DNA of 38,777 nucleotides, taken from assembly GCA_031265035.1 (NCBI GenBank), contig JAISDE010000142.1:1-38777 (forward strand), given 5' to 3'. Source of the DNA: Peptococcaceae bacterium. Its GTDB lineage: Bacteria > Bacillota > Peptococcia > DRI-13 > UBA5745. A program made the position numbers and the translations under genes. Positions 27 through 33,239 of the stretch are shown here, one piece after another (position 1 is the first letter of the stretch; each line of letters opens with the position of its first letter). The notes under the pieces were generated by a model that was given only the letters and a program-made list of their open reading frames with translations, had not been told where the DNA came from and did not search any database.

Positions 27-3000
27 TTAGCGAGAATTTTTCCTTAGCGCCCGCAGCTCGGCTAAAATTTTTTCCGGCGTGGCGGGCAAATCCCTGATCC
101 GCGCCCCTACAGCGTGATAAATCCCGTTTATGACCGCCGGCGTCATCGGCACCGTCCCCACCTCGGAAACGCCCTTGGCGCCCAAGGGGCCGGCCGGATC
201 GGGATTTTCCAGCAGCAGCGTCTCATAATATGGTGTCTCGCCGATCGTGGGCAAGCCCAACTGGCCAAAATATTTTTTTTGCGGCGCGCCGTCTTTTAAG
301 GGGAAAGTCTCTGAAAGAGCGTATCCTATGCCCATGGCGCAGCTGCCGGTCAACTGCCCCTCGACTACGTTGCTGTTGATCAGGCGCCCGATATCATGGG
401 CCGCGATCACATCCAGCACCCTTACCCGGCCATCGGCGGTATCCACCTCCACCACCGCGGCCTGGGTGGTGTAGGTATAAGCCGGGTAATTTCTGTATTC
501 CGCCTGAGAAACGCTGGCCCGACCCGCCGTATCGTAAAGAGCGAAAGTTTTAGGCGCGATATAGACATACTCGGCGAATAGCCGGTCGCCGCCGGCGAGA
601 AGAGCCAGTACCCGGGCCAGATTGCCCGGCGAGGCGGCCGGCAGCGCCTTGTAGGACTCGTCGTCAGGATCAAAGTGATAGCCCTGGGCGGCAGGCGTCG
701 GCAGCCCGGCGTTGGCGGCCCCCGCCTCAGCCCCGGCAACGGCGCCAGCTGTAGCGCCGGCATCCGGGCTAACGACAGCGCCCGCAACGGTGCCAGCGCC
801 AGCTACAGCGCCCGCGCCCACACCTGCGCCTGCTCCCGCCCCATCTCTTGCACCAGCACCCGCGCCTGCACCCGCCTCAGCGCCAGCGCCAGTTCCAGCG
901 CCGGCACCAGCACCTGTGCCAGCCTCGGCCTTAGCCCCCGCACCGTCAGCGCCTTCCCCGGCCAACAACGCGGCCAGCCTGGCGCGGAACTTTTTGGCCG
1001 CCCCTACCACGGCGCTGCCGCTGATCAGTGTCTGCCGCTCCCCCACGGCATTGCTGTGGGGCACGGTCAGCAACGTGTCGCCATTTACCGTATCCAAAAT
1101 CTCCGGCTCACAGCCCAAAACCTGCGCCGCCAGCTGGGTCATGGCCGTGCGAAAGCCCTGCCCCATGTCAATGCCGGAAACCGTCAGCAACAGCCGCCCG
1201 TCCGCCCGCAAAAGCAGCGAGGCGCCGGCGTCGTCAATCTTGCCCTTGCCGGCCCCGACATTTTTGAAGCCGCTGGCCATCCCCAGGCCCAGTCGCTTGG
1301 TGCCCTGGGGATAATCCGCCTGCCGCCGCTGGAAAACCTCCCTGGCGGCGTCCCGGCAAAGCATCAGTGTCTCCCGAATCCCCACGCTTTTTTGCAGGAT
1401 CTCGCCGGAAAACGTGGTGTCCGAAAGTCGAAAGGCGTTGCGCAAGCGCAGCTCAAAAGGATCCAGCCCCAGGGCCGTCGCCGCCTCGTCCAGCAGGGAT
1501 TCCATGGCGAAAGCGGCCTGATTGATACCAAAGCCCCGAAAAGCGCTGGCGGGGACATTATTGGTAAACACCGCCTGCCCGCTGACCCGACCGTTGGGCA
1601 TCCGGTAAGGGCCGACGGAAAAAATACACGCCTGATCAATAACCCTGGGGCTGAGGTTGGTATAAGGTCCCCCATCGGAAAGCAATTTAGCGTCAAAATA
1701 CCGCAACAGCCCTTCCCGATTCACGCCCAGCTCATAATCCAGCTCATAAGGATGCCGTTTGGTACTAAAGCCCAGGGATTCTTCCCGGGACAATACCAAG
1801 CGCACCGGCCTTTTCAGGCAATGAGCGGCCACCGCCACCGCCGGCTCGGTAGTGGCGTCAGCCTTGCTGCCAAAACCGCCGCCGGCCGGCGTCGCCCGGA
1901 TCCGCACCTTTTCCGGCGGCAGGGCCAGCACCGCGGCCAATTGGCGGCGCAGCTCGAAAGGAGACTGGGTCGGGCAATACACTGTCACACCCGCCGCCGG
2001 ATCCCAGCAGCCGACGCTGGCCTCCGGCTCCAGACAAGCGTGCTCTACCGCCGGCGTCGTAAAATGACCCCGGAAGTGGAGCAGACCCGGCTCCCGCCGG
2101 GCGGCGTCGGGATCGCCGGTCGTATGGCTGAGTTCCTTGATTACCAGCCCCTTCGCCGCCGCCTCCCGCATATCAAACACCGGCGGCAGCGGCTGATAAT
2201 CCACCCGCACCAAAGCGGCGGCAGCCCTGGCCTGAGCCTCGCTGTCCGCCACCACCAGGGTCACCATATCCCGGATAAAGCGTACCTCGTCGGCGCAAAA
2301 TACCGGCTGATCCGGCGTCAGCAGCCCAAAACCGTTTTGGCCGGGCACATCCCTGGCGGTCAGCACGGCGATCACGCCCGCCGCCGCCAGCGCCGGGCCG
2401 CTGTCGATGGCCAAAATCCTGGCGTGAGCCTGTCCCGACCAGACCGGGGCGGCATATACCATGCCCGGGAAATCCAGATCGGCGGCAAAGGGCAGCCTGC
2501 CGGCGGCTTTGTCCAGGCCGTCTTTGTCCCACAAGGGCCGGCCCAGCAAATCAGCCGCCCCGGCGGCGGCACTGGCGCCGTCCGGCCCCAAGCCAGCCAA
2601 AGCGCCGCCGCTATCGTCCCGCCCCGAGCCAATCAAGACGCCGCCGCTCGGCCCCCCGCCAGCCAAAGCGCCGCCGTTCAGCCCCGGCGCCACCTTTTCC
2701 CGATACTCCCCCTCGGCAATCTGGACATACAAACGCCCCCTGGACAAAGGCGGCTCCGCCGGCGCGGCGGCCGCTCCGCCCAGCGCCAGCGGCACCTCGC
2801 CGCTCCCGTCAGCCGCCGCCAGCGCGGCGGCCACTTCGCCCGCGGCCATCTCGTCGCTCCCAGCCACGGCCACAGCCGCCGTCTCGCCACTGCCTGCCAC
2901 GGCCACAGCCGCTTCACCGCTCCCGGCCTCCACGGCTGTATCGTCGCTCCCGGCCTCTGCCACCACAGCCGCCTCGCCGCTCCCGGCCTCTGCCGCCGCC

Positions 3001-3539
3001 TGCCTCATCCTGGCCGCCGCCAACTCCACCGCCTCAATGATTTTGACATAGCCGGTGCAGCGGCAATAATTGCGCCGCAATGCCTGAAAAATATCCGCCC
3101 GGCTGGGCGAGAGATTTCGATCCAGAAGACCCTTGGCGGCCATGATCATGCCGGGGCTGCAAAAGCCGCACTGGATCGCTCCCGCGTCTAAAAAAGCCTT
3201 TTGGATCGGATGGGGCCGCCCCGCCGCCGCCAGATGCTCAATCGTCTCGATCTCCTTGCCGGCGACGGCGGCCAGCTTGACGACACAAGCCCGGACGGCC
3301 TTGCCGTCCATCAGCACCGTACAAACGCCGCAATGACCGGTGCCACAGCCCTCCTTGGCTCCCTTCAGGCCCAGGACATCCCGCAGGCAGGCCAGCAAAG
3401 TCATCCCCGACCGCTCCGCCGGCAAAGTGACAATCTCCCCGTTGACGGAGAAAACCAGGGGCGAGCCCGCCGCCGAGCCGGCGCCGGCTTGGTTGGCGCC
3501 TGAGAAAGCGCCGGAGGGATCTGCCGCCGAAGAAAACAT
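27..3539 (-). CDS. Fused [2Fe-2S] + molybdopterin-binding oxidoreductase (xanthine dehydrogenase / aldehyde oxidoreductase family, no FAD domain)
   Basis: N-terminal ferredoxin motifs GCGTGHCGVCTVL and CGFCSPGMIMA...RRNYCRCTGYVKI; Mo-subunit motifs GGGFGSKAD, AFRGFGINQAAFAME, GAKGVSEVGTVP. ORF opens at 3605, but Met at 3539 (GLMFSSAAD) has a good SD (ggaaggag). Confidence 0.9.
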   Translation of the reverse strand: MFSSAADPSGAFSGANQAGAGSAAGSPLVFSVNGEIVTLPAERSGMTLLACLRDVLGLKGAKEGCGTGHCGVCTVLMDGKAVRACVVKLAAVAGKEIETIEHLAAAGRPHPIQKAFLDAGAIQCGFCSPGMIMAAKGLLDRNLSPSRADIFQALRRNYCRCTGYVKIIEAVELAAARMRQAAAEAGSGEAAVVAEAGSDDTAVEAGSGEAAVAVAGSGETAAVAVAGSDEMAAGEVAAALAAADGSGEVPLALGGAAAAPAEPPLSRGRLYVQIAEGEYREKVAPGLNGGALAGGGPSGGVLIGSGRDDSGGALAGLGPDGASAAAGAADLLGRPLWDKDGLDKAAGRLPFAADLDFPGMVYAAPVWSGQAHARILAIDSGPALAAAGVIAVLTARDVPGQNGFGLLTPDQPVFCADEVRFIRDMVTLVVADSEAQARAAAALVRVDYQPLPPVFDMREAAAKGLVIKELSHTTGDPDAARREPGLLHFRGHFTTPAVEHACLEPEASVGCWDPAAGVTVYCPTQSPFELRRQLAAVLALPPEKVRIRATPAGGGFGSKADATTEPAVAVAAHCLKRPVRLVLSREESLGFSTKRHPYELDYELGVNREGLLRYFDAKLLSDGGPYTNLSPRVIDQACIFSVGPYRMPNGRVSGQAVFTNNVPASAFRGFGINQAAFAMESLLDEAATALGLDPFELRLRNAFRLSDTTFSGEILQKSVGIRETLMLCRDAAREVFQRRQADYPQGTKRLGLGMASGFKNVGAGKGKIDDAGASLLLRADGRLLLTVSGIDMGQGFRTAMTQLAAQVLGCEPEILDTVNGDTLLTVPHSNAVGERQTLISGSAVVGAAKKFRARLAALLAGEGADGAGAKAEAGTGAGAGAGTGAGAEAGAGAGAGARDGAGAGAGVGAGAVAGAGTVAGAVVSPDAGATAGAVAGAEAGAANAGLPTPAAQGYHFDPDDESYKALPAASPGNLARVLALLAGGDRLFAEYVYIAPKTFALYDTAGRASVSQAEYRNYPAYTYTTQAAVVEVDTADGRVRVLDVIAAHDIGRLINSNVVEGQLTGSCAMGIGYALSETFPLKDGAPQKKYFGQLGLPTIGETPYYETLLLENPDPAGPLGAKGVSEVGTVPMTPAVINGIYHAVGARIRDLPATPEKILAELRALRKNSR

Positions 3540-3769
3540 AAGACCGCTCCTTCCTTCAAGGCAACGTATCGATGCCTTGAAAAAACTGATTTTTACGCGG
3601 CACATTATATCACGCGGCGATCCCCAATGAATTAACGCCTGTTAGCGTTTCGCGGAATTTCCCCGGTTACCCCGGTTAGATTTCCCGTCGATTTCCCGTC
3701 GGATACGGACTGGAACTCTGTATTGAATTCTGGTATAGTGGGGGTAGTCCAGAATGAAAGGTATACCGC

Positions 3770-4345
3770 ATGAAGTATTATAAAATCTTAATGGCTGACA
3801 AGTCAGAGAATGATATTGTTGGCCACTGCGCTAATGACTATGGAATAGGATATGACGCGCTATGCCAAGGAAAAGAGTTTCTCAACTGGAATGACGCCTT
3901 CATGTTTTATTACAACAAAAATGAAGGCGATATCCCGACTGACTATCTGGCAAATGACAAAGGCTGGTTTCTTATATCTGAGAATTTAAAAGAACTGTTA
4001 GAAGGAATGCGCGTCGCTTGTCAGTATTTTAATATACCAATAATAGAGGCGGTTACCAATACTCCACTTAACCCTTACTATGGGGCTAATATTCTTCAAA
4101 TGGTAGACGCGCTTTGCCTTGACGCGTCAGAATACTCGACAATGACGGTCAAAAAAAGCACCGATGTTTTCCACAATATAAAAAAATTCGCGGTTCACGC
4201 GTCGAAATTGAATGGCATAGACGTTTTTAAGTTAGCAACAGGAAGCGTATTCCCGATTTTTGTATCACAACGATTTAAGGATGAGGTAAGAAAGCGAAAT
4301 TTGACAGGAATGGATTTTCAGGAAATAAGAGTAGTTCCTTATTAG
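3770..4345 (+). CDS. Imm11/DUF1629-like immunity family protein
   Basis: 191 aa; pattern 'PTDYLANDKGWFLISENLKELLEG' and C-terminal 'DVFKLATGSVFPIFVSQRFKDEVRKRNLTGMDFQEI' resemble Imm11-type proteins. Extended -10-like tggtatagt just upstream. Confidence 0.6.
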   Translation: MKYYKILMADKSENDIVGHCANDYGIGYDALCQGKEFLNWNDAFMFYYNKNEGDIPTDYLANDKGWFLISENLKELLEGMRVACQYFNIPIIEAVTNTPLNPYYGANILQMVDALCLDASEYSTMTVKKSTDVFHNIKKFAVHASKLNGIDVFKLATGSVFPIFVSQRFKDEVRKRNLTGMDFQEIRVVPY

Positions 4346-4364
4346 GCGCTTCCGAGGAGGCAGG

Positions 4365-4889
4365 ATGATGGAAACATCAATTATTCAAGAATTCGCGTTA
4401 TTTATCAACGAAGTCAATAAATATACGGAAGGCGTTCACTTTCTCAATCCTGGCGCGGAATTATCCGTTATTGAAGGATTCGAAAAAAGTAATAATATCA
4501 GTCTTCCGAAGCAATATAAAAATTTTTTGCGATTACATAATGGTGGGGAACTATTCAGACCGGGAGTAGTATTAGCCGCGATCTACAATGGAAAAACAGG
4601 AGATAAAAAAATCGGCGTACCATACCTTGATGAATCGTTGTCGCGTCATAGGCGTTTACCCGGTATGCCGAATAACTTGCTTATCATCGCGGACATGAAT
4701 TATGGAGATCCAATCTGTATAGCGCTCAACCATAGTGACGACGAGTCAAAAGTTGTTCAATGGAGCATTGAGGACGGCAATATATCACGCGAATGGGATA
4801 GCTTTACCGAATGGCTGTCGAATACCATTGAAGAAGGTTCTATGTTAGTAAGCTATGATGGAAGTGAGAAAGAATTAGATTTTCTGTAG
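4365..4889 (+). CDS. SMI1/KNR4 (SUKH) family protein
   Basis: 'VIEGFEKSNNISLPKQYKNFLRLHNGGELF' is a typical SUKH N-terminal signature; 'aggaggcagg' SD. Confidence 0.8.
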   Translation: MMETSIIQEFALFINEVNKYTEGVHFLNPGAELSVIEGFEKSNNISLPKQYKNFLRLHNGGELFRPGVVLAAIYNGKTGDKKIGVPYLDESLSRHRRLPGMPNNLLIIADMNYGDPICIALNHSDDESKVVQWSIEDGNISREWDSFTEWLSNTIEEGSMLVSYDGSEKELDFL

Positions 4890-5933: not shown

Positions 5934-7586
5934 CTAATTTTGTTCGGTGCCTTCATGCCATTTCGCGGCAGATGTGCTGCCGCTGCTGTGAATCCGTCCC
6001 TCGTCACGCAATTCGCGGAGCAAATACTGGATTTGATTTTTTGAGTGGCTCGGAAGAACTTGCCGCAACTCTTTCAGCGGCGTTCCCTTGTCACCGCTTT
6101 CGCGAATATGTTTCAGCAATAATTCCTTATTTGTTTCGCGGTCTAAGCCAACGATGCGCGTGTGAACCCCCGTCTTACCCGTCGCTTCATAAAGGCTATG
6201 CGCCAAGACATATTTTCCGCGTCCGCTGTGTTCAACGATACCTAAATCGACGAGGCGTTTTATATGCTGACGCAGTTCGTCAGTAAGTTTCCATTCGTGG
6301 AATAATGTGTCGATGACGAGGAAGTCCACAGTCGATAAAACTTCCATTCGCTCATCGCCGATTTGTTTCAGCATTGATAACAGCCGCTTGTCGAGCACAA
6401 GTCCGTTTAAGGTCAGGAACACCCAGTATGCGTCCGTGCCACTGAAATCCGGCAGGGGCTTTGCTTCTTTTACGCTTAATTCGTAAATCAGATTCATTCC
6501 CTGCCCGGAGCGTTCAACCAAACCACATAACGCGAGTATGGACGCGATAAGTCGGTTGCGCGGCGACTGGCGGTTGAGGATATTGTCAACAGTGATGCCG
6601 GATGGAAATCCGCCGGGGCTTTCGACAACGAGCCTGTCCTTGTACTGGCGGACAAACACGCTCCCGCTCATCTGATAATCGCGGTGACTGACGGCATTTA
6701 GCACCGCCTCACGAACCACACGCTCATTGAAAGTCGGCACATCGAAAATGACAAAACCATCTTGATAATGTTGTTTGTCATTCCTCAGGTTCACAAGCTC
6801 CCAAATGCGGTCGAAGAATGAGAAAAATCCTTGCGTAAATTCTTCGCGTTGCGCGGCGGGACCGGACGCGTTTGACGAGCGGTACTCAAATATGACTTCC
6901 GCCTGCGAAAGATGTTTTGTAAGCGCGGCTTTAGTTCCGAATAATATCAGCGCGGCATAGGTTACGCCGTTCGCTTTTATTGCGCCGCAGTCCATTAGCG
7001 ACTGTTCTGCCGACAGCTTTTTTATGCGGTTGTTTCCGCTCTTTTCTGCCCAAAGATCGCGGAATATGGTTATGGCTTTTTCGTCTAAGTCTTTGAGCGA
7101 CGCGCCGAGACAGATGTCGCTTGAAAAATCGTGTCCCGTTTCTTCGTAGATGCCCCGTAAAACTTCCGGCGGCATCGTTACAAGGCTGTCGCCGTCGCGC
7201 CACCAAGCAACGCCGTCAACCTGTACAGGCAGACCTACCGGGCGGCTCGCCACCTCAAAAACGAGGACGGGCATACCGTCCTGCTCGAAAAGCTGAAACT
7301 CAACCTTGATATGGAGCTTATCTATCAGGTTCCTGCAGGCGCGTTCCGGCTGTTCAAAAGCGGTGCTGCCAACGACCTTACGAGGGCGTTTATCGGTAAC
7401 GCCGAGGACGAAGAACCCGCCGCCGCAGTTGGCTAAAGCGCAACAGTATTTCGTCGCTTTTTCAAAGTCGCCGTGGCGTTTCCATTCTTTGAACTCATAC
7501 CGCGACCCCTCGGGTGCGTTGAGCAGGTCAGTTAGGTTATTGGGCGGGTTGGTCATTGGGCGGCGTCCTTCCTTGTAGGCGTTCAC
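5934..7586 (-). CDS. AlbA_2 / Schlafen-like ATP-binding protein with C-terminal winged helix
   Basis: 'EGSRYEFKEWKRHGDFEKATKYCCALANCGGGFFVLGVTD' and 'REAVLNAVSHRDYQMSGSVFVRQYKDRLVVESPGGFPSGI'. Alternative start at 7556 (MTNPPNN) has an SD. Confidence 0.85.
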   Translation of the reverse strand: MNAYKEGRRPMTNPPNNLTDLLNAPEGSRYEFKEWKRHGDFEKATKYCCALANCGGGFFVLGVTDKRPRKVVGSTAFEQPERACRNLIDKLHIKVEFQLFEQDGMPVLVFEVASRPVGLPVQVDGVAWWRDGDSLVTMPPEVLRGIYEETGHDFSSDICLGASLKDLDEKAITIFRDLWAEKSGNNRIKKLSAEQSLMDCGAIKANGVTYAALILFGTKAALTKHLSQAEVIFEYRSSNASGPAAQREEFTQGFFSFFDRIWELVNLRNDKQHYQDGFVIFDVPTFNERVVREAVLNAVSHRDYQMSGSVFVRQYKDRLVVESPGGFPSGITVDNILNRQSPRNRLIASILALCGLVERSGQGMNLIYELSVKEAKPLPDFSGTDAYWVFLTLNGLVLDKRLLSMLKQIGDERMEVLSTVDFLVIDTLFHEWKLTDELRQHIKRLVDLGIVEHSGRGKYVLAHSLYEATGKTGVHTRIVGLDRETNKELLLKHIRESGDKGTPLKELRQVLPSHSKNQIQYLLRELRDEGRIHSSGSTSAAKWHEGTEQN

Positions 7587-29742: not shown

Positions 29743-30009
29743 TCAGTCGTCATAATGACCTTTGCATTGTGATATTTCAATTTTATCGTTATTTATACGG
29801 TACACCAGGCGGTTTGTATCATCAATACGACATGACCACCACCCTGATAAATTACCCCGCAAGGGTTCCGGTTTGCCTATCCCGCCATAGCCGATTCTCA
29901 CAATATCCCGTATGATCTCATTTATACGTTTTAGCGTTTTTCTGTCTTGCGTTTGCCAGTCAAGGTAGTCATTCCATGCCCGCTCTTGAAAATCAACGCT
30001 CTTACTCAT
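29743..30009 (-). CDS. Txe/YoeB-family toxin
   Basis: 'FQERAWNDYLDWQTQDRKTLKRINEIIRDI', 'GKPEPLRGNLSGWWSCRIDDTNRLVYRI', 'CKGHYDD'. Confidence 0.92.
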   Translation of the reverse strand: MSKSVDFQERAWNDYLDWQTQDRKTLKRINEIIRDIVRIGYGGIGKPEPLRGNLSGWWSCRIDDTNRLVYRINNDKIEISQCKGHYDD

Positions 30010-30277
30010 TTTCCATAGTCTCTAATTCCTCTAACGACTTGCGGACAATGCCCCGGCCAGCGTCCATATCGGCAATAGAGGCGCGCAAAACCCGCATGTT
30101 AGCCTCACTGTAAAAGGGGTCTGTTTTTGTCGTGATCTCAAACGGGATGCCGCCTTGCCGTAGCGTTTGCCGGACAAACATATTAAAGGCCGTCGTCATA
30201 TTCAAACCCAACTCATCAAAGAGCGCGTCAACGCGGTTTTTCAAATCATCATCAATGCGTATATTGACCTGTGCCAT
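30002..30277 (-). CDS. RelB/DinJ-family antitoxin
   Basis: 'MAQVNIRIDDDLKNRVDALFDELGLNMTTAFNMFVRQTLRQGGIPFEI'; overlaps the toxin start by 8 nt. Confidence 0.9.
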   Translation of the reverse strand: MAQVNIRIDDDLKNRVDALFDELGLNMTTAFNMFVRQTLRQGGIPFEITTKTDPFYSEANMRVLRASIADMDAGRGIVRKSLEELETMENE

Positions 30278-30400: not shown

Positions 30401-30444
30401 CATAATTACCATAATTACCATAATTACCATAATTACTTAATTAC
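30401..30444. repeat. Tandem 9-bp repeat (cataattac), four perfect copies plus a diverged one
   Basis: 30401-30436 perfect, then ttaattac. Confidence 0.95.
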
Positions 30445-30532
30445 TTAGAGTAATCGCTAATGATTCCGAGTATTTCAATATAAATTCCGGTGTGGTATAA
30501 TTGTCGGGAGCGCCATTACGAGGAGGAATACC

Positions 30533-31408
30533 ATGAGATACAAGGACACGCTGACAACCGAGCGACTGGTTTTGCGGCCCCTTACCTCGGCCGATTTCGC
30601 GGCCGCCCACTCGTGGGGGAGCGATCTCGCCAATACCCGTTATATGCTGTGGGGACCCAACTCGGAGGAGCAGACCCGGGATTTTCTAGCGACCGCGAGA
30701 CCCGGCAAGGATTTCGCCGTGGTCTTGAGGGATTCCGGCCAGGTGATAGGCAGCTGCGGTATCTATCCCGATCCGGCGGGGGATACGGGCGAGTTGGGCT
30801 GGATTCTCCATAAAGACCATTGGAAGCGGGGCTTTGGTACGGAGTTGGGCAGCGAGCTGCTGAGTTACGGCTTCAACGACTTGAGGCTACGCCGCGTCTG
30901 CGCCCCGTGCGCCGCAGTGAATTACGGCTCCTACAGGGTGATGGAGCGAAACGGTATGCGCCGCGAGGCAGTCCGCGTCAAGGCGTTTTGGGATCGGGTC
31001 GATAAGGAGTGGATTGACGAGGCGGAATACGCCCTGCTGGCGGAAGAATATTTTACGCCCAAGTGCCCGCCCGGGGGGCAGGCGGGCGGGGCTGAGGGCA
31101 GGTACGCCGTAATAACAACAGCATGCGCCGATACTGAGGAGGCCGGGAAAATAGCGACGATCCTTTTGGAGGGGGAACTGGCGGCTTGCGTCCAATTTTT
31201 CCCCGTCAGCAGCCGTTATGTTTGGCAAGGCGAGACCCGGGCGGACAATGAGACGCTGCTGTTCATCAAGTGCCGCCGGGACAAATATGCCGCTATTGAG
31301 AGGGCGATTCTGGCAAACCACAGCTACGAGCTGCCGGAAATCCTGCTGACGCCTGTCGCGGGCGGCCATCAGCGATATTTGGGCTGGATTGACAAAGACG
31401 ATAAGTGA
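30533..31408 (+). CDS. GNAT acetyltransferase fused to a CutA-like domain
   Basis: N-term 'LTTERLVLRPLTSADFAAAHSWGSD'...'YRVMERNGMRREA' (RimJ/RimL-like); C-term 'YAVITTACADTEEAGKIATILLEGELAACVQFFPVSSRYVWQGETRADNETLLFIKC...SYELPEILLTPVAGGHQRYLGWI' (CutA). gaggagg SD and tggtataat -10 upstream. Confidence 0.9.
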   Translation: MRYKDTLTTERLVLRPLTSADFAAAHSWGSDLANTRYMLWGPNSEEQTRDFLATARPGKDFAVVLRDSGQVIGSCGIYPDPAGDTGELGWILHKDHWKRGFGTELGSELLSYGFNDLRLRRVCAPCAAVNYGSYRVMERNGMRREAVRVKAFWDRVDKEWIDEAEYALLAEEYFTPKCPPGGQAGGAEGRYAVITTACADTEEAGKIATILLEGELAACVQFFPVSSRYVWQGETRADNETLLFIKCRRDKYAAIERAILANHSYELPEILLTPVAGGHQRYLGWIDKDDK

Positions 31409-31484: not shown

Positions 31485-31766
31485 TCACTCATCGGCATCT
31501 AAATCATCAAAAAGCGCGTTCATATCCCTATAGCCTTTTATATTCGGGTCATGGCTGATTCTCTCGGCCTCGGCCATAGCTGCTAAAGTTACGGCGTTCG
31601 GCTGTCTTGGACGTAGGTCAAACGGCAATCCGCCAACGTTACATGATTGATGGATAAAAACCGTCACAGCTTCGGCAAGGGACAACCCATAGTGTAAGTA
31701 TACGCTCTCGGCAGTTTTTTTAACTTCCGCGTCTAATCTAATATTCAGGCTTGCGGTCTTAACCAT
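31485..31766 (-). CDS. RelB/DinJ-family antitoxin, apparently orphan
   Basis: 'MVKTASLNIRLDAEVKKTAESVYLHYGLSLAEAVTVFIHQSCNVGGLPFDLR'; no toxin ORF adjacent. Confidence 0.85.
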   Translation of the reverse strand: MVKTASLNIRLDAEVKKTAESVYLHYGLSLAEAVTVFIHQSCNVGGLPFDLRPRQPNAVTLAAMAEAERISHDPNIKGYRDMNALFDDLDADE

Positions 31767-31862: not shown

Positions 31863-33239
31863 CTAACAACCTCCGTTTTCGGGTTTTACGATCCAGAGGC
31901 CGGTTTTCCTCGCGCCCTCGCGCTCGACCAGCCCGGCTTTTTTCAACGCTCGGATATGAGCTTCAACATTTTTTCTGTCAAGGCCCAAGTTATCCGCGAT
32001 CTGCCCCGTGGTCACGCTTGGAGTGGCTTTCATCAGAGCCACTATTTTTTGTCTGATCTCATTTATTCCGCTATTTATTCCGCTATTTATTCCGCTACCG
32101 TTAGCGGAATAAATATTGCGCTCCGCAATGGCCTTATTATTGTCGCGAATGTGAAAGCAGACCATAAAATCATTCGTGGAAATGCGAAATTCCGGCTCCG
32201 GCAAATCGTCCGCGGCGCAGGCCGCTTTGATTTTTTCGATACCGCGCCCCCAAGCCTCAATCTGCCCTGACCGGAAAAAGGTGTTGGCGATCAGCGGGTT
32301 ATAAGGCGCTGACTTATGAGCGAGCCGCAAATTTTCCTCCGTGGTGCCGGCAGGAAGCCGCGCGTCATTGAAGATAAACACCTTGTCGTCAAAAACCTTT
32401 ATCTGCACCGGATTCATTGTTTCGTAGGCGCGATGCACAACGGCGTTCAAGACGGCTTCCCTGAGCGCGTCGCGGGGCATGGGGTAGCGATCGATCCGCT
32501 GGATACCCTCGTAGTGAATCAACCCCTTGAAGTATTTTGTGTAGATGGTATCCATCACCCGGTCGGGAATCGTAAGGATCGGCCCGGTGATCTCATCCTG
32601 ATAGATTAAGTCCGCCGCGTTTTCAAAATAACCGATCTTCACATTGCAGCCAAGTCGTAACTTCTCTGGCGTTTGGTGGAACAGCAAAACAGCGGCGTTC
32701 AGCAGATAATCGCCCTCGGTCAGTTGCAGCGCCTGAAGCAACTCCGCGTCGCTGCCCTCCACATCCTCTTGTGTAAGCCTGCCGCTCGTCACCGCTTTCT
32801 TGCGGAACGCGTCAAAGGCGTCGCGATAGAAGTCTCCGGCCTTGATATGCGGGACAGGAACGGAGTCCCATGTCTTTCCGTATTTGCCAAGCAGAAACTC
32901 ATCGAGAGCGTAGCCTGTCAGCTCCTGCGTCGTGCTACCGGAACGGTAATAATATCTGCCGCGATAGCTGATGGCGTTATGGTGCGGCGCCACTTTAATA
33001 ACGATGTAATCCTTGTCCGATTCGTGAAAGAGGTTTACATCAGTAATGATGCCCATTGAGTTGCGAATTTTATTCGGCAGATCATCCATCAGCTTCTTCG
33101 CGTTGGTCAAGCCTGCAACCTCGCCTTTATCATCGCGACCGATCTCAAGCATGCCGCCCTGCGCGTTGGCGAAGCCGCATACCCACTCAAGATATTCATC
33201 GCGCCAGGACGCTTTCCACTCAGTGTTCTGATTTTCCAA
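31863..33239 (-). CDS. AlbA_2 / Schlafen-like ATP-binding protein with C-terminal winged helix
   Basis: 'ENQNTEWKASWRDEYLEWVCGFANAQGGMLEIGRDDKGEVAGL', 'DALREAVLNAVVHRAYE'; C-terminal NSGINSGINSGINE linker and HTH. Confidence 0.88.
   Translation of the reverse strand: MENQNTEWKASWRDEYLEWVCGFANAQGGMLEIGRDDKGEVAGLTNAKKLMDDLPNKIRNSMGIITDVNLFHESDKDYIVIKVAPHHNAISYRGRYYYRSGSTTQELTGYALDEFLLGKYGKTWDSVPVPHIKAGDFYRDAFDAFRKKAVTSGRLTQEDVEGSDAELLQALQLTEGDYLLNAAVLLFHQTPEKLRLGCNVKIGYFENAADLIYQDEITGPILTIPDRVMDTIYTKYFKGLIHYEGIQRIDRYPMPRDALREAVLNAVVHRAYETMNPVQIKVFDDKVFIFNDARLPAGTTEENLRLAHKSAPYNPLIANTFFRSGQIEAWGRGIEKIKAACAADDLPEPEFRISTNDFMVCFHIRDNNKAIAERNIYSANGSGINSGINSGINEIRQKIVALMKATPSVTTGQIADNLGLDRKNVEAHIRALKKAGLVEREGARKTGLWIVKPENGGC
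32062..32113. repeat. In-frame 12-bp tandem repeat x3 followed by an inverted copy
   Basis: tttattccgcta x3 (32062-32097), ccgt, then tagcggaataaa (32102-32113). Confidence 0.95.

Follow-up and report, generated by a model that had tools for sequence, protein, structure and literature searches.

CutA is a small, widespread protein of three subunits whose role is unsettled. One gene in the 38,777-nucleotide stretch of Peptococcaceae DNA analysed here (hereafter the window) places a CutA domain behind a GNAT acetyltransferase in a single reading frame, at 30533–31408 on the plus strand. This raises the questions of whether the gene is real and what CutA would contribute to the enzyme. The best explanation, to which we assign a probability of about 0.5, is that the gene is a genuine, lineage-specific in-frame fusion whose GNAT is trimerised by CutA and possibly modulated by a ligand.

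Results

The fusion gene runs uninterrupted from an ATG start to a TGA stop over 291 codons, with no internal stop, and would yield a protein of 291 residues. Its start is preceded by AGGAGGAATACC-ATG, which includes a Shine-Dalgarno AGGAGG at 30521–30526 on the plus strand; only two perfect AGGAGG-N6-ATG matches, this one included, are found in the window. In-frame ATG, GTG and TTG codons are absent between codon 142, which lies within the GNAT, and codon 212, which lies within CutA, and this leaves CutA without a separate start. The GC content at the three codon positions is coding-like and similar in the two halves (0.60/0.47/0.75 and 0.60/0.42/0.67).

The core of the GNAT domain (residues 11–143; 30563–30961, plus strand) matched the whole Acetyltransf_3 profile (PF13302, positions 1–138 of 138; 2.1e-31) with a score of 109.9 bits where 25.4 is the cut-off, and the homology to stand-alone relatives extends to about residue 174. 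The solved GNAT 3fbu, the nearest solved structure, was matched by sequence (3.9e-24; 34% identity) and also by the predicted fold, with a TM-score of 0.92 over the target. All 15 columns that are invariant in a family alignment of 28 sequences are kept, and the acetyl-CoA loop KRGFGTE is present, with G100 and E104 invariant in the same alignment. The protein thus resembles RimJ/RimL-like GNATs in having a complete GNAT domain, but differs from them in carrying CutA. Every named acetyltransferase model in NCBIfam scored this half under its cut-off.

The CutA1 domain (residues 193–288; 31109–31396, plus strand) matched positions 2–98 of the 99 in PF03091 (6.9e-30). Its 103.2 bits against a cut-off of 22.4 identify the C-terminal region as CutA by profile HMM. 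The solved CutA1 of Shewanella (PDB 3ahp) was matched by sequence (5.2e-19), as were many other CutA1 entries, and the domain retains each of the 12 positions that do not vary among nine aligned CutA sequences, including A-C, W, E, K, H-x-Y, P and W. The domain is therefore complete and shares its invariant residues and predicted fold with the CutA1 family, whose members are normally stand-alone proteins of about 110 residues, whereas here it forms the C-terminal half of a 291-residue protein. Because of this position and a score of 79.5 bits against the 120-bit cut-off of the NCBIfam CutA equivalog, we file it as a CutA1 domain and not as an equivalog of CutA. The original prediction of one open reading frame holding a complete RimJ/RimL-like GNAT and a complete CutA is thus borne out by the single open frame, by full-length Pfam matches far beyond chance and by sequence matches to solved structures of both families.

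A full-length AlphaFold model, built with an alignment of GNAT relatives that held no CutA rows, predicted the GNAT with confidence, the linker as disordered and a CutA-like fold with lower confidence. When the CutA half was modelled separately with three viral-contig CutA sequences, it gave a ferredoxin-like CutA fold with a pLDDT of 85, and the 50 best PDB matches shown were all CutA1 or CutA-based designs. The linker (residues 178–191; 31064–31105, plus strand) is rich in Gly, Pro and Ala and is predicted to be disordered, with pLDDT below 50. Its DNA contains a perfect 7-bp GC palindrome, GCCCGCC-N9-GGCGGGC (31065–31087), with a GGGGGG run, the spot where an indel error would matter. An origin of the linker from a dispersed repeat was rejected: the genome holds five copies of the palindrome with differing centres, and the linker DNA is without a convincing second copy. 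A hairpin was likewise rejected, its stability being no greater than that of shuffles (z 0.47).

The neighbours of the fusion gene belong to a stretch that looks like an accessory island. This stretch is flanked by a V-type ATPase operon and by a hemerythrin gene plus a peptide-transporter operon, and its GC content is lower than that of both flanking operons. Just upstream lie a RelB-YoeB toxin-antitoxin pair (29746–30277, minus strand) and, on the same strand, a gene whose product has a PIN-like match that is weak and under the cut-off. Downstream are a RelB antitoxin beside which no toxin gene was recognised (31488–31766, minus strand) and an SLFN_AlbA_2 plus HATPase_c_4 protein with a C-terminal HTH (31866–33239, minus strand). 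A second SLFN_AlbA_2 plus HATPase_c_4 protein is encoded elsewhere in the window (5937–7586, minus strand). No Rfam match or tRNA was found in the window and no long-repeat array around the gene, so that no mobile-element signature adjoins the fusion; nor did the fusion match a defence system in PADLOC. Upstream of the gene, CATAATTAC is repeated five times in tandem (30401–30444), a possible regulatory repeat. Far from the fusion gene, two immunity-like genes (Imm11 and SUKH; 3770–4886, plus strand) adjoin long, repeat-rich overlapping ORFs at 27–3605, and these may belong to a locus for contact-dependent competition.

The 18 nearest GNAT loci, 58–76% identical, come from metagenome-assembled genomes (MAGs), mostly of the gut; going by their sample codes, many appear to be termite-gut bins. 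Their labels (Oscillospiraceae, Lachnospiraceae, Defluviitaleaceae, Propionibacteriaceae, Accumulibacter and others) are scattered, which suggests horizontal transfer or binning error. None of the 18 has CutA beside the GNAT. Stand-alone relatives such as L001, L002 and L004 are 71–76% identical to the fusion over the GNAT domain but end a few residues past it, with no CutA.

The CutA copy in the fusion is the only one in its own genome, which is 85% complete. In the class, the other 45 genomes yielded no CutA above the cut-off, one of them giving a weak partial match under it, while 31 of the 399 genomes in the phylum sample have a match above it. Of the 24 genomes that house the GNAT relatives, only one carries CutA, a stand-alone gene encoding 106 aa (L122) in another MAG that is 45% identical to the window's domain and is the closest found. 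Its start Met aligns two residues ahead of the window's RYAVI, indicating that essentially the whole of CutA was joined.

The window's match was the only one in the phylum sample to cover both domains, and sampling of genomes at the level of family, order, class and phylum turned up no second one with a GNAT-CutA fusion. A peptide-seeded scan of genome contigs, which could miss many cases, gave no further example. Neither did IMG/VR, queried with the fusion protein or its CutA half, and no plasmid record reached at least 80% coverage. Some CutA genes of the phylum lie in long open frames, in which no upstream partner was recognisable by eye, and Pfam found CutA alone in the three viral-contig CutA frames. 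The literature searched contained no paper describing a fusion of GNAT and CutA. The absence of other examples holds within the data searched. CutA was probably acquired and joined to the GNAT within the window's lineage, and the fusion seems to be a recent, one-off event unique to it.

Counting the window's own protein, six of the 19 nearest members of the GNAT clade are fusions, and their partners are of five kinds. A second GNAT stands at the C-terminus in L003 (1313–2269) and L014 (4010–5026), an arrangement also present in more distant members (seen in Pfam matches for L022 and L024 and by eye for L023 and L033). The partner is a NUDIX domain in L018 (4001–5077), TrmD followed in frame by the GNAT in L007 (3302–4525), and UPF0158, also in frame, in L010 (3557–4525). 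In L007, the GNAT could also be translated separately from TrmD, since an ATG/TTG and a weak ribosome site are found immediately ahead of it; close to the junctions of L003, L014 and L018, a GTG or ATG might serve as an internal start. Across a broader set of related GNATs, comparably long open frames were seen for about 3 of 47. The difference (6/19 versus 3/47; Fisher P = 0.013) is no more than indicative, as the counts were made differently, from checked fusions in one case and open-frame length in the other, and relatives are not independent. Members of this GNAT clade are readily fused, with CutA as one of several partners.

Discussion

Our analysis describes two known families in a new combination, seen once. 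The GNAT half very likely N-acetylates a substrate with acetyl-CoA, the use of which is expected from its family. The CutA half most likely brings three copies of the protein together, and a CutA-driven trimer may fairly be inferred from the solved members of the CutA family. The most likely product, by analogy with these proteins, is an active acetyltransferase trimerised by CutA, with three catalytic domains predicted to sit on flexible tethers. A small molecule bound in the inter-subunit clefts may, speculatively, modulate the GNAT. CutA-like domains within larger proteins have a precedent in the NIF3/DUF34 proteins, which carry an inserted CutA1-like/PII-like domain with a suggested regulatory role (PMC8469502), although the partner there is unrelated and the domain is an insertion, in contrast to the C-terminal fusion in the window.

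The present reading frame could be an artefact of sequencing or assembly, in which an indel of one or two bases within the G-rich linker joined two adjacent, separate genes. The GGGGGG run sits inside the GC palindrome of the linker, and the fusion is known from one contig of one MAG. In simulation, deleting a G provides CutA with a GTG start at 31063 and ends the GNAT near 31109, while adding one ends the GNAT near 31094 and lets CutA start at TTG 31014. However, the GTG at 31063 is without a Shine-Dalgarno, the TTG at 31014 falls within the GNAT coding region and would add about 30 residues ahead of CutA, and either variant means that the genes overlap by tens of bases; the present frame, for its part, offers CutA no start whatever. 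Two overlapping genes are less natural than a fusion, and a frameshift joining two genes is unlikely. A more serious competitor, possible though still doubtful, is that adjacent accessory genes were joined passively when the GNAT lost its stop, the two domains working independently and their union having no regulatory meaning. The fusion-prone clade described above, with its higher count than in the wider sample, and the accessory neighbours of the gene (RelB/YoeB, the unpaired RelB and the SLFN_AlbA protein) favour this account. The occurrence of unrelated partners in the same clade makes a CutA-specific functional link less compelling, and coupling is not required. Against the passive account, both domains are fully intact, the CutA is the sole copy in the genome, and a trimeric partner imposes assembly on the GNAT, whether or not this was selected.

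The remaining readings assign CutA a sensing role. The original prediction raised the possibility that the acetyltransferase is metal-responsive; in this reading, a divalent metal bound by CutA would switch the GNAT. It finds some footing in the historical tie between CutA and the copper tolerance of E. coli (PMC8469502, PMC7694984), but deletion of cutA in Synechococcus left metal tolerance unchanged, even under combined metal and nitrogen stress, and the role of CutA in metal tolerance has been challenged on this ground (PMC7694984). The neighbours of the fusion gene include no identified metal transporter or metal regulator, and the surrounding island offers no sign that metals are handled there. 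We therefore regard the metal response as highly improbable. That CutA is a true regulatory module, sensing a small molecule within the clefts of the trimer and controlling the acetyltransferase allosterically, is itself quite unlikely, but less so; a small-molecule carrying or signalling role for CutA is proposed in the title of reference 15 of PMC7694984. A genuine fusion in which CutA trimerises an active acetyltransferase remains our preferred reading.

There is a modest chance that the fusion is functionally informative. Its value as a readout is weakened by its having been seen once and by the ease with which this GNAT clade joins unrelated partners. Nevertheless, the natural fusion of CutA to an enzyme provides an assayable readout, in which changes in acetyl transfer could reveal ligands or metals affecting CutA. 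If the regulatory reading is true, the fusion would be a clue to the physiological ligand or partner of CutA.
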